Positions 5,005-18,635 of a DNA stretch of 29,303 nt are shown here, piece by piece. Numbering within the stretch: position 1 is the first letter of the stretch; each line of letters begins with the position of its first letter. The stretch comes from a virus. The stretch spans positions 1 through 29,303 of the IMG/VR virus record IMGVR_UViG_3300042402_000700. One strand, given 5' to 3'. Both the position numbers and the translations under genes were made by a program. A model generated the notes under the pieces. The model searched no databases. It was not told the DNA's origin and was given only the letters and a program-made list of their open reading frames with translations.

Positions 5005-5692
5005 CAAAGCAGAACGCGAAAGCGCATTTGTAGCCGACTACGATCTCCCAACGTTTGTTAAGTTATGCTCGAAGGTGTGTGCTATGTACGGAATAGCGTT
5101 ACCCGAAGCGCAACTACTCCAGATGCTGCACGAGTTTATAGGAAAGCACTTTCGGTGGGTTACGTTTGAACACTTCAACCTTGCGTTCGAACTAAATGCA
5201 GCGAATGAACTGAGTAAAAAGTGTGAGCATTTTGGAGCGTTGAGCGTGTCGTTTATTGGTGATGTGTTGACGCACTACAAACCACACAGGGACAAAGCGA
5301 ACTTACAAATTCAGCGCGAAATAGCGCAATCGATAGAAGAAAAAGCAGAACTAATAAAAGAAAATGAAATGGCGGTGAACGACGACAGCTGGAGAAGAAT
5401 GCTTAAAGAAGATATTGACAGCTTCAAACAAGGCAAATACACGACTTTAGAATTGCGCGGAGTGTCAATGATGCGATGGCTCGAAGAAAGTAAGCGTATA
5501 ACTGCTGAAACCTTCACAGACGAGGAATACAACCTGTGTAAAGCGAAGGCACGAAAAACAGTCTTCAATGAACAGCAACTATCAAAAGGAATGGTTGAAC
5601 GAATGAGTGACCGCAAACGTCAGCTACTCAAAGAATCAATTGCGTTCGAAGGCTTCCGTGAACTTTACAAACTTTATTTGTCAAAGCAATGA
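4937..5692 (+). CDS. Conserved replication-region protein (possible helicase-loader type)
   Basis: A 251-residue helical protein. Residues 38-115 contain LPTFVKLCSKVCAMYGIALP, then a helix with WVTFEHFNLAFELNAANEL, then HFGALSVSFIGDVLTHYKPHR. I associate this layout with a conserved Bacteroidota phage family found beside replication initiators. It loosely resembles helicase-loader proteins that pair with initiators, but no diagnostic motif settles that. The C-terminal half is charged and coiled. The start at 4937 lies inside the preceding gene and its stop overlaps the methyltransferase start as ATGA, so the three genes are coupled. Confidence 0.65.
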   Translation: MENSTPMLRNASTTTLTITQRVDKAERESAFVADYDLPTFVKLCSKVCAMYGIALPEAQLLQMLHEFIGKHFRWVTFEHFNLAFELNAANELSKKCEHFGALSVSFIGDVLTHYKPHRDKANLQIQREIAQSIEEKAELIKENEMAVNDDSWRRMLKEDIDSFKQGKYTTLELRGVSMMRWLEESKRITAETFTDEEYNLCKAKARKTVFNEQQLSKGMVERMSDRKRQLLKESIAFEGFRELYKLYLSKQ

Positions 5693-6678
5693 ATCACGGA
5701 TCGTTATTTAGCGGAATCGGTGGATTCGATTTAGCCGCTGAATGGATGGGGTGGAACAATACATTTCATTGTGAATGGATGCCTTTCCCACGCAAAGTTT
5801 TAAGTCATTATTTTCCCAATTCAATTAGTTATGAAGACATTACAAAGACAGATTTCTCTATTCACAGAGGAACAATTGACATACTCACAGGCGGATTTCC
5901 TTGTCAACCATACTCAAGCGCAGGTAAGCGACTTGGGAAAGAGGACGAGCGACACCTCTGGCCGCATATGCTCAGAGTCATTTCAGAAGTTAAACCAACC
6001 TACGTCGTGGGCGAAAACGTTCGTGGACTTACTAATTGGAATGGGGGAGTGGTCTTCGAAGAAGTGTGCGTTGACTTGGAAAGTCAAGGGTACACCGTAC
6101 AACCGATACTTTTGCCAGCTTGTGCCGTTGGTGCGCCACACCGAAGAGATAGAGTTTGGTTCGTCGCTTACAATGCTGCCTACTCCAATAGCAGGAGATT
6201 GGAAAGGTCAGAAGAGGTCGGACGGAACAGCATCAATGCTGAGTGGGAAAGCGAGTTTGGGACTACTTCCAACACCTTGCGCGTTCGACAGCACGAATGC
6301 TCGTGCGACAATGAAAAGCAGTCAAATAAAAGAGGGTTCGATGCACTCAATGACATTGCCGAGGATGTTGGAAATGGGATTACTTCCAACTCCAATGGCA
6401 TCGGAAGGAACGAAGTTAAGTGGAAATCCAAAAGAGAATCAAATGTCAATGACAAAAATAGCTTACGAAATGACTGGCAAAACTTCCCAACTCAATCCCC
6501 GATTTGTGGCGGAGATGATGGGCTTCCCACCCAACTGGACGGAATTACCTTTTCAAAGTGGAGACAAGAATCTATAAAGGGTTATGGAAATGCAATCGTT
6601 CCGCAGGTAGCCTATGAAATTTTTAAAGTAATTGCTGAAATGGACAGGTTAGAAAAACTACAACTAAAACTATTTTAA
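5689..6678 (+). CDS. DNA (cytosine-5) methyltransferase
   Basis: A 329-residue enzyme with the ordered C5-methyltransferase motifs. Motif I is SLFSGIGGFDLA (5-16, S-adenosylmethionine binding). Motif IV is GGFPCQPYSSAG (68-79, with catalytic Cys72). Motif VI is ENV (109-111), motif VIII is RRDRVWF (152-158), and motif X is GNAIVPQVAYEIF (300-312). It methylates cytosine in phage DNA, probably against host restriction; target specificity cannot be read here. Residues about 165-260, where the target-recognition region should lie, are oddly rich in Asn/Ser/Arg/Glu and look unconserved. A second ORF in the +1 frame spans codons 48-296 (see next entry). No cognate restriction gene is visible. It overlaps TerL by one base. 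Confidence 0.95.
   Translation: MNHGSLFSGIGGFDLAAEWMGWNNTFHCEWMPFPRKVLSHYFPNSISYEDITKTDFSIHRGTIDILTGGFPCQPYSSAGKRLGKEDERHLWPHMLRVISEVKPTYVVGENVRGLTNWNGGVVFEEVCVDLESQGYTVQPILLPACAVGAPHRRDRVWFVAYNAAYSNSRRLERSEEVGRNSINAEWESEFGTTSNTLRVRQHECSCDNEKQSNKRGFDALNDIAEDVGNGITSNSNGIGRNEVKWKSKRESNVNDKNSLRNDWQNFPTQSPICGGDDGLPTQLDGITFSKWRQESIKGYGNAIVPQVAYEIFKVIAEMDRLEKLQLKLF
5831..6577 (+). CDS. Overprinted LPTP-repeat protein inside the methyltransferase gene
   Basis: A 248-residue ORF lies wholly inside the cytosine methyltransferase gene, in the +1 frame. It does not look like a random shadow. It has an ATG start, LPTP motifs at residues 116-119, 146-149 and 185-188, each followed by a short polar segment (for example AGDWKG), and a C-terminal LNPRFVAEMMGFPPNWT at 221-237. 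Its N-terminal half has SWAKTFVDLLIGMGEW and KKCALTWKVKGTPYNRYFCQLVP. From memory, similar LPTP/MGFP sequences occur beside or within cytosine methyltransferase genes of other phages; I cannot verify that here. Where this frame is richest in motifs, the methyltransferase frame is low in complexity. Its role is unknown: an accessory or specificity partner of the methyltransferase is one idea. Confidence 0.68.
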   Translation: MKTLQRQISLFTEEQLTYSQADFLVNHTQAQVSDLGKRTSDTSGRICSESFQKLNQPTSWAKTFVDLLIGMGEWSSKKCALTWKVKGTPYNRYFCQLVPLVRHTEEIEFGSSLTMLPTPIAGDWKGQKRSDGTASMLSGKASLGLLPTPCAFDSTNARATMKSSQIKEGSMHSMTLPRMLEMGLLPTPMASEGTKLSGNPKENQMSMTKIAYEMTGKTSQLNPRFVAEMMGFPPNWTELPFQSGDKNL

Positions 6679-16820: not shown

Positions 16821-18635
16821 TTATCCTCCGAGTTTAGATTGATTTTGAATTAATTGTTGTGCTTCTAAGTTGCTGCTCACTTGACTACTCACAACGTACG
16901 CTTGTAGCGGTGGTTGTTGTTGCCCTGGTTGGTTGCCTAAGAAAGCGAAGTTGGCAGGTGAAGGTGCTGTTGTACCGCCTGCGCTTGGAACGCTTCCGCC
17001 ACTACCGCTTCCGCCACTTGTACCCCCACCGCCTTGAAACTGTTGTTTTGATATTATAGCCACACGAGCAAGACCTTGAGCAATTGCTAATCCTGCTGCT
17101 ACTGCCGCACGAACAGGAGCGTCGGGGGTTGATATAGCCATTTGCGAACGATACGCGCCTTGTGCTGCTAAATAAGTGTCTATTGTAGCCGTTGCAATAC
17201 TCACACCTTTTTGTATTTGAAACGCTTTTCTTTGTTGTCTTTCGCTGTCTCCTGCAAATGCTCCTGCTAAGTCGCTAATAATAGACAAAGAAGTTCGCAT
17301 AGCGTCTACGCGAAGGTTTGCTTTTGCTTCTTCTGCCCTTCTTAAATCTTCAACTTCTTTCTGTGATTGTTCCGCTCTTAATGCTGTAAGTTTCGCGTGT
17401 CCTTCCATTTCAGCAAGAAGTTTCGCGTCTGCTCTTTTCTTCAATTCTTCATAACCGATAGATGCCATTCGCTCATCTTCAGCCAACATTTCGTCGTTTA
17501 ATTTTTTACGACGCTCCAACTCTTTGTCGTCCGCTTCTTTTTGTAAACGTTCGTTTTCGTCGTTCTCTTTTTTTATTTGGTCTTTCTTTGCCTTTGCTGC
17601 GTCAGAATCCATTTTTTGAACAGACAATTTCAACCCTGCGTAGTCGTTCTCCATTGTAGCAATGGCATCTTTATTCTCTTGAATGGTTTTATTCAATTCA
17701 GTTTCTAACTCTTGAGGATCTATTAATAATCCTGCGGCTAAATCGGTAAAACCTTCAGCGAGATTACTGTCTACACCAACAACTTTAGCTATTTCGTCAA
17801 CAGCCGTTAAAAGAAGTTGAAGCGGAGCGGTAAGAAAGCGAATAATTCCTTCAAGAATTTCTCTGTTTCTTTTTGCCGTTTGAACCTGTGTAATGGCTTG
17901 CTTTTCGGTAATTGCTAATTGTGCTTTCCTGTCAGCTATTGCAGTTTCTAACGCTTTAATTTTGATATTTAAAATCTCGCGTTCGCTCTTTCCTTGTAGC
18001 TTTAATATGTTAGACTGTTTGTCTATGTTTTCGTATGCCTTTTGCGATGCGTCAGCTTTTGCTTTTGATATAGCAAGACTTTCTCTTTCTTGTTCATTGA
18101 TTCCAGAAAGACCACTTTCAACAGAAGGGAAAAGTTTTATTAAATCGTCAAAGTTTGCAATGATTAAAGCGACAGCACCTGCAAGTAAAAGAATAGGGTT
18201 GGCTATAATTGCTTTAGCTAACGACGCAAAGCCACTAACTAAACCACCTATCTCATTTTTTAAAGTCTTAAAATCAATTTTGGATACATTCGCACCCATA
18301 TTTTTTAAAGCCTGTCCTGCTCCTGCTAAGTCTAAGTCCATTAATCGTGAACCAAACAAACCGATGTTATTCGAAAGACCTTCAAAAGCGTTACCTGCGT
18401 TGGCACTAATCTCTGCGGAAAGGTCGCTTATATTGTCTTTCAATTCAGCAGCACGAGCGGAAGCCTTTTTAAACTCCTCACTCGACCTATCCATTTGTTG
18501 CAACTGATTCTGCAACGCGCGAAGTTCAGCTTTAGCAGAACTAAATCCTTGTGCGGTATTTTGAGCTGCGTCAGCCGTCTGATTAAGGACGTTAACACCG
18601 TTGGTATTTACTATTAAATCAATTGTATTCGCCAT
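16821..18635 (-). CDS. Tail tape measure protein
   Basis: A 604-residue protein with coiled-coil N-terminus (FSSAKAELRALQNQLQQMDR, about 30-80), a hydrophobic segment (about 145-165, IIANPILLLAGAVALIIANF), a second one near 265-285, a long charged coiled coil (about 340-450, Lys/Glu-rich) and a Gly/Ser/Pro-rich region near the C-terminus (about 535-575). Tape measures set tail length and reach the host membrane at DNA entry. At roughly 0.15 nm per residue this predicts a tail of about 90 nm. It is the longest coiled-coil protein here, supporting siphovirus morphology. Confidence 0.88.
   Translation of the reverse strand: MANTIDLIVNTNGVNVLNQTADAAQNTAQGFSSAKAELRALQNQLQQMDRSSEEFKKASARAAELKDNISDLSAEISANAGNAFEGLSNNIGLFGSRLMDLDLAGAGQALKNMGANVSKIDFKTLKNEIGGLVSGFASLAKAIIANPILLLAGAVALIIANFDDLIKLFPSVESGLSGINEQERESLAISKAKADASQKAYENIDKQSNILKLQGKSEREILNIKIKALETAIADRKAQLAITEKQAITQVQTAKRNREILEGIIRFLTAPLQLLLTAVDEIAKVVGVDSNLAEGFTDLAAGLLIDPQELETELNKTIQENKDAIATMENDYAGLKLSVQKMDSDAAKAKKDQIKKENDENERLQKEADDKELERRKKLNDEMLAEDERMASIGYEELKKRADAKLLAEMEGHAKLTALRAEQSQKEVEDLRRAEEAKANLRVDAMRTSLSIISDLAGAFAGDSERQQRKAFQIQKGVSIATATIDTYLAAQGAYRSQMAISTPDAPVRAAVAAGLAIAQGLARVAIISKQQFQGGGGTSGGSGSGGSVPSAGGTTAPSPANFAFLGNQPGQQQPPLQAYVVSSQVSSNLEAQQLIQNQSKLGG

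Follow-up and report, generated by a model that had tools for sequence, protein, structure and literature searches.

M.EcoHK31I, a methyltransferase with the specificity YGGCCR, has a small chain that was reportedly found by Lee, Kam and Shaw in 1995 to be read out of frame inside the gene for its large chain. In multispecific Bacillus phage m5C methyltransferases of the SPbeta/SPR/phi3T type, the recognition domains sit between motifs VIII and IX. M.EcoHK31I is a two-polypeptide m5C methyltransferase in which the alpha polypeptide holds motifs I-VIII and X and the smaller second polypeptide holds motif IX, and its predicted TRD has been placed on the large subunit (PMC3404938). M.AquI is also a split m5C methyltransferase, the second chain of which carries both IX and X (PMC3404938). 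The SPbeta/SPR/phi3T-type enzymes belong to temperate phages and possess arrays of recognition domains (PMC12707154).

Here, we have analyzed a whole virus contig of 29,303 bases (hereafter, the window), which carries terminase, portal, tape-measure and lysozyme genes and in which one m5C methyltransferase gene (alpha) encloses a second ORF (beta) in its +1 frame. We consider it about 85% probable that positions 5689-6678 encode both subunits of one split m5C methyltransferase, with motif IX and recognition contributed in trans by beta. Based on motif layout and not on sequence homology, the pair most likely works like M.EcoHK31I, as motif IX is found on a second, smaller chain in both cases, nested out of frame here and reportedly also in M.EcoHK31I. 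The placing of the TRD does not fit this analogy: unlike M.EcoHK31I, the TRD-equivalent segment of the window's alpha is unconstrained and the constraint lies in the beta frame, the recognition region appears on beta in the form of an exchangeable LPTP array, and the system is phage-borne. With M.AquI the pair would share the making of one enzyme from two chains, but its motif X stays on alpha; two relatives (L168 and L301), with IX and X on the second chain, are AquI-like. The exchange of cassettes in the window's family resembles the recognition-domain arrays of the SPbeta/SPR/phi3T type in organization, and those enzymes have one chain and one frame, whereas the window's cassettes lie in a second, overlapping frame.

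Organization of the locus

Alpha is a 329-amino-acid ORF at 5689-6678, and beta is an ATG-initiated ORF of 248 codons at 5831-6577, wholly inside alpha over codons 48-296. Both are on the plus strand, as are all of their features described below. Beta lies exactly where, and in the frame in which, a first-pass annotation made from the sequence had placed an ORF overprinted in the methyltransferase gene. The motif positions given there were also exact (LPTP at beta residues 116-119, 146-149 and 185-188, SWAKTF at 59-64 and LNPRFVAEMMGFPPNWT at 221-237). The low complexity that it had noticed in alpha residues ~165-260 was confirmed and reflects the LPTP units as read in the other frame: ctgcctactcca, for instance, gives LPTP in one frame and AYSN in the other.

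Alpha matches Pfam PF00145 (E 8e-45) and phrog_363, and its alignment to methyltransferases of solved structure is confined to about residues 1-176 (1-162 for the hits to HhaI/HaeIII). Its motifs were located at 5704-5745 (motif I), 5890-5916 (motif IV, with PCQ), 6004-6021 (motif VI, with ENV), 6133-6168 (motif VIII) and 6580-6624 (motif X), and a low-complexity linker that is unconstrained as alpha-frame protein extends between motifs VIII and X (6169-6490). Beta matches phrog_1008 (E 2e-35), a PHROG named 'DNA methyltransferase', which was also matched by all of the 73 aligned betas; no match was obtained in a sequence search of beta against solved structures. As delimited by alignments, beta begins with an N-domain (residues 1-115, 5831-6175) that overlaps alpha motifs IV-VIII and in which a hairpin, LTWKVKGTPYNRYFCQLV, is predicted for residues 80-100 (AF2 local pLDDT ~70). 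The N-domain is followed by three LPTP cassettes (residues 116-145, 146-184 and 185-215, at 6176-6265, 6266-6382 and 6383-6475, respectively) and by the stretch assigned to motif IX, GKTSQLNPRFVAEMMGFPPNWT (residues 216-237, 6476-6541). Directly after the beta stop, an alpha-only tail (6578-6678) contains motif X, GYGNAIVPQVAYEIF.

The alpha start overlaps the stop of the upstream gene (ATGA, window 5689-5692), and the stop of alpha in turn shares nucleotides with the start of terminase (TAATG, window 6678). Given these overlaps, alpha, its upstream gene and terminase look translationally coupled. Among the proteins scanned, which represented part of the ORFs, no restriction-system endonuclease was recognized near alpha and beta. 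Elsewhere in the window, the tape-measure gene (16821-18635, minus strand) contains a 204-codon ATG ORF on the opposite strand (17893-18507, plus strand).

Assignment of motif IX to the inner frame

The first-pass annotation had described methyltransferase motifs I-VIII and X as intact. We found motifs I, IV, VI, VIII and X in alpha; the absence of motif IX had gone unnoticed there. Because Pfam and NCBIfam models match motif IX of the relatives poorly or miss it entirely, a direct peptide comparison was used. The M.HhaI peptide 269-289 (GKTRKLHPRECARVMGYPDSY) could be aligned to GKTSQLNPRFVAEMMGFPPNW of beta with a BLOSUM62 score of 57 (shuffles: mean 20, SD 3.3, 0 of 5000 reaching it), and the same peptide scored 20 against alpha, which is the chance level. 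In all betas the match lies ~33 residues from the C-terminus and, on the DNA, immediately precedes alpha motif X; residues M230, G231, P233, W236 and T237 are invariant across 73 sequences. A profile comparison places the beta stretch at M.HhaI 269-307, just before motif X, a position at which the segment taken alone is not significant. Judged from these alignments, motif IX is carried by beta and is absent from alpha.

The relatives show several arrangements of the same elements. In single-chain homologues (L188/L195, L193/L197 and L194/L202), motifs I-VIII, LPTP units, IX and X follow one another in one frame and in that order. In sequentially split homologues, LPTP units, IX and X are on a second chain, as observed in Mycobacterium phage Camperdownii (gp75) and in Brevibacillus (L301). 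In actinobacterial virus contigs (L198-L201 and L207), frame 0 contains I-VIII, IX and X together with a low-complexity linker, and a long ORF in the +1 frame has a beta-like N-domain and LPTP units without motif IX. The presence of motif IX in the alpha frame of these contigs implies that the division of labour between the frames varies. In L195 (1435-2859), L197 and L202, the first LPTP units are in a +1 ORF, and frame 0 contains the later units together with IX and X; either frameshifting or a recent exchange of frame could explain this change within the array.

It would be improbable, in our view, that alpha is complete and that beta is a separate protein (a regulator, an inhibitor or an anti-restriction factor) which merely shares its DNA. 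Alpha does retain motifs I-VIII and X, and the actinobacterial contigs have IX in the alpha frame. However, alpha of the window has neither a motif IX above chance nor a constrained region between VIII and X, the beta stretch matches motif IX of M.HhaI, and the single-chain homologues hold the units of beta within the enzyme itself. The earlier suggestion of an accessory or specificity partner can be made more precise in favour of a split enzyme: beta would be the missing part of the same enzyme, contributing motif IX and probably target recognition.

Evidence for translation of the inner frame

In 107 of 109 loci, an inner ATG occupies a fixed place, 100-200 nt past the start codon of alpha. 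In Bacillota homologues, a Shine-Dalgarno sequence precedes the inner start in 15 of 17 cases, compared with 18% of other downstream ATG/GTG codons (p 5e-10, a value that is optimistic since the sequences are related). By inspection, few of the window's own gene starts have Shine-Dalgarno signals. Translation of beta is thus supported by evolution and by the ribosome-binding sites of relatives.

These starts also bear on the idea that only one canonical chain is produced, by programmed frameshifting of alpha into the +1 frame after motif VIII and perhaps back again before motif X. Such slippage would agree with the canonical order of motifs along the DNA and with the change of frame of the cassette array in L195, L197 and L202, but the conserved in-place ATG and the Shine-Dalgarno sequences of Bacillota speak against it; beta is moreover conserved from its ATG on, upstream of any useful slip site, and two slips would be needed because frame 0 resumes with motif X as soon as beta has ended. 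No cytosine methyltransferase cluster is listed in the main text of a survey of frameshifting (PMC3711429). We consider programmed frameshifting quite unlikely, and two separately initiated subunits remain our preferred reading.

Selection on the two frames

The length of the inner frame was compared with random expectation. None of 20,000 synonymous shuffles of alpha had an open +1 stretch of at least 257 codons (maximum 218, mean 81), and neither did any of 20,000 sequences drawn according to the codon usage of the phage itself (maximum 231, mean 66). The longest open run in the +2 frame of the alpha gene is 32 codons, and in ten other genes of the window the runs reach at most 79 (+1) or 90 (+2) codons. 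Among 109 distinct homologous loci, the median open length was 264 codons in +1 versus 38 in +2.

A codon-phase test was then based on 48 independent pairs of homologues, in which substitutions were counted by alpha codon position; alpha position 1 corresponds to beta position 3, and alpha position 3 to beta position 2. Upstream of the overlap, rates at alpha positions 1, 2 and 3 were 0.038, 0.021 and 0.207 (3/1 ratio 5.5), and over motifs IV-VIII they were 0.069, 0.031 and 0.149 (ratio 2.1). In the alpha linker (residues ~165-266) the rates became 0.331, 0.164 and 0.165, with a ratio of 0.50 (95% 0.43-0.58), and in the motif IX stretch of beta 0.161, 0.047 and 0.120 (ratio 0.75); in the alpha-only tail they were 0.081, 0.039 and 0.286 (ratio 3.5). 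The fastest-varying position is therefore the third position of alpha outside the overlap and the third position of beta in the alpha linker. Accidental misalignment of unrelated cassettes would dilute such a signal, not create it. As the 3/1 ratio reverses along the gene, the constrained frame passes from alpha to beta and back to alpha, a switch which two translated and selected proteins could account for and one protein could not. Both frames are under purifying selection. These results bear out the idea in the first-pass annotation that constraint trades between the frames, and selection is not confined to the methyltransferase frame: alpha residues ~165-266 are constrained in the second frame instead.

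The reversed substitution pattern in the linker by itself already refutes the possibility that beta is a chance or shadow ORF, open through gene composition and untranslated, which we regard as very improbable. The absence of a comparable frame in all 40,000 randomizations, the conservation of frame, start codon and motif IX over many phyla and the Shine-Dalgarno sequence before the inner start point in the same direction. In favour of a chance ORF, an ordinary single-chain methyltransferase of a streptococcal phage (L305, 1192-2334) has an open +1 stretch of 160 codons, which suggests that this type of gene may tend toward longish +1 frames. A bias of the L305 type is perhaps general, making overprinting easier.

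Distribution of the nested pair

A search of IMG/VR with the inner protein revealed 494 relatives, and 75 of the best 80 loci had it nested within a methyltransferase gene, in the +1 frame. Since a sample selected by beta is biased toward beta, a second sample was drawn by the first 48 residues of alpha, which are upstream of the overlap. In this sample, the complete pair was found in 74 of 80 phage loci, and the remaining six comprised three truncations at contig ends and three loci with one indel. In these last three (L102, L126 and L147), which were the only loci of the 80 with internal stops, both frames run on in parallel after the single indel, shifted together, as would be expected from assembly error or recent mutation.

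Nesting, always in +1, was also seen in 68 of the 80 top-ranking loci from bacterial genomes; according to record names, they belong to Bacteroidota, Bacillota, Pseudomonadota, Nitrospirota, Acidobacteriota, Verrucomicrobiota and Parcubacteria. Among the remaining 12 bacterial loci, several were also nested, but broken by stops, cut at contig ends or missed by the pattern. The frame is conserved in the beta-selected, the alpha-selected and the bacterial samples. Neither loss of the frame, nor common internal stops, nor selection on the methyltransferase frame alone was observed, these being the outcomes that the first-pass annotation had named as refuting its reading. The large majority of matches to beta come from the same overlap, which answers the question raised in the first-pass annotation of whether they would derive from standalone genes, and further matches come from the single-chain or sequentially split homologues.

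The pair also occurs in isolated phages of Paenibacillus, Bacteroides, Lacticaseibacillus, Xanthomonas, Klebsiella, Escherichia, Edwardsiella and Komagataeibacter. In prophages of E. coli ETEC H10407 (L303) and E21 (L302) and in phage epsilon15 (L304), beta is nested in +1 and the records annotate only the outer methyltransferase. The inner gene has been annotated in Paenibacillus phage Lily (gp63, 'g62 internal gene') and in E. coli phage K1ind2 (ORF28, 'Mte8-like'), and in P. larvae phages, where two genes bear the annotation 'DNA cytosine methyltransferase'. These genes have family and nested position in common with beta of the window, and their records explain neither the link to motif IX nor the cassette array. 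A relation to YdiP of BsuMI, an idea taken from one phage annotation, found no support in the literature searched.

That beta is a nested mobile element, for example of the homing HNH endonuclease type, has hardly any probability: a precedent is described in ShiLan (PMC11855218), where such an endonuclease is hidden in an insertion in a phage methylase, but searches of Pfam and NCBIfam gave beta no match to HNH or to any other nuclease family, its PHROG bears a methyltransferase name, and it spans the catalytic motifs of alpha and is not an insertion.

Modular exchange of LPTP cassettes

Between the N-domain and motif IX, betas contain 0-6 units, each beginning with LPTP, the recurring types of which are 28-46 residues long. 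At 65% identity, 164 internal units were grouped into 57 types. The commonest type, with the consensus LPTPTVFDSTNASATMKSSQVKEGSMHSMTLPRMLSMGL, was present in 46 of 105 loci at eight different array positions and is represented in the window by cassette 2; cassette 1 is of the second most frequent type (consensus LPTPIAGDWKGQKRSDGTASMLSGKASLGL, 16 loci). Among betas with N-domains at least 85% identical, the cassette arrays differed in 297 of 328 pairs. Conversely, units at least 90% identical were found in betas with N-domains less than 60% identical, mostly at different array positions. These comparisons indicate that the cassettes undergo modular exchange independent of the backbone, and the LPTP cassettes would be candidate DNA-recognition units.

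Structure prediction was performed for a single-chain homologue (L195), in which residues 1-178 and 362-448 (containing IX and X) were folded with a pLDDT mostly above 90 in the AF2 model, and the LPTP region had low confidence. With Foldseek, this model matched M.HhaI over the catalytic part only (~165 alignment columns), with nothing on the LPTP units. The AF2 model of beta alone was of low confidence (pLDDT 53), which might hint at a subunit that folds on its partner.

According to the split-enzyme reading, alpha, in frame 0, would fold as the large catalytic domain, with SAM binding, the catalytic cysteine of PCQ and the domain-closing helix of motif X, and its long linker would stand in place of the small domain. 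Beta would be initiated separately at its own ATG within alpha, from the same mRNA in the +1 frame, and would provide elements of the small domain in trans, namely motif IX and the LPTP region, which would bind the DNA and select its target site. We infer that alpha and beta assemble into an active enzyme, in which the cassettes would serve recognition, and which probably methylates the phage's own DNA as protection from restriction enzymes of the host. Swapping LPTP cassettes, each of which has to be open in two frames, would alter the sequence or sequences protected.

A broader proposal is that phages keep a combinatorial library of specificity cassettes in the second frame of the methyltransferase. 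Recombination of the 28-46-residue cassettes, each stop-free in both frames, would change or add protected sequences, and the array, IX or X would have changed frame in some lineages. To this proposal we assign even odds.

Implications of the overprinted methyltransferase

Parts of this system were already known: phrog_1008 has been catalogued and annotated as a gene in some phages, and split methyltransferases have likewise been described. With respect to the literature searched, the demonstration of selection on the inner frame is new, and so is the reading that assigns motif IX and recognition to beta in phages. Also new are an overlapping frame that holds an array of exchangeable cassettes, relatives whose units switched frame, and the occurrence of the arrangement, mostly unannotated, across phages and prophages of so many phyla.

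Functional long same-strand overprinting has rarely been shown in bacteria and their DNA phages. In the present case several kinds of sequence evidence, independent of one another, back it, and it extends over phages and prophages from many phyla. The inner gene is often omitted in standard annotation, so that the methyltransferase of an E. coli prophage or of a classic phage such as epsilon15 seems whole but lacks motif IX. It is predicted that such 'orphan' methyltransferases would seem inactive if only one ORF were cloned. Being natural, split and modular, a methyltransferase of this kind, the units of which can be exchanged, may be of use in enzyme engineering and in reading the anti-restriction strategy of a phage.
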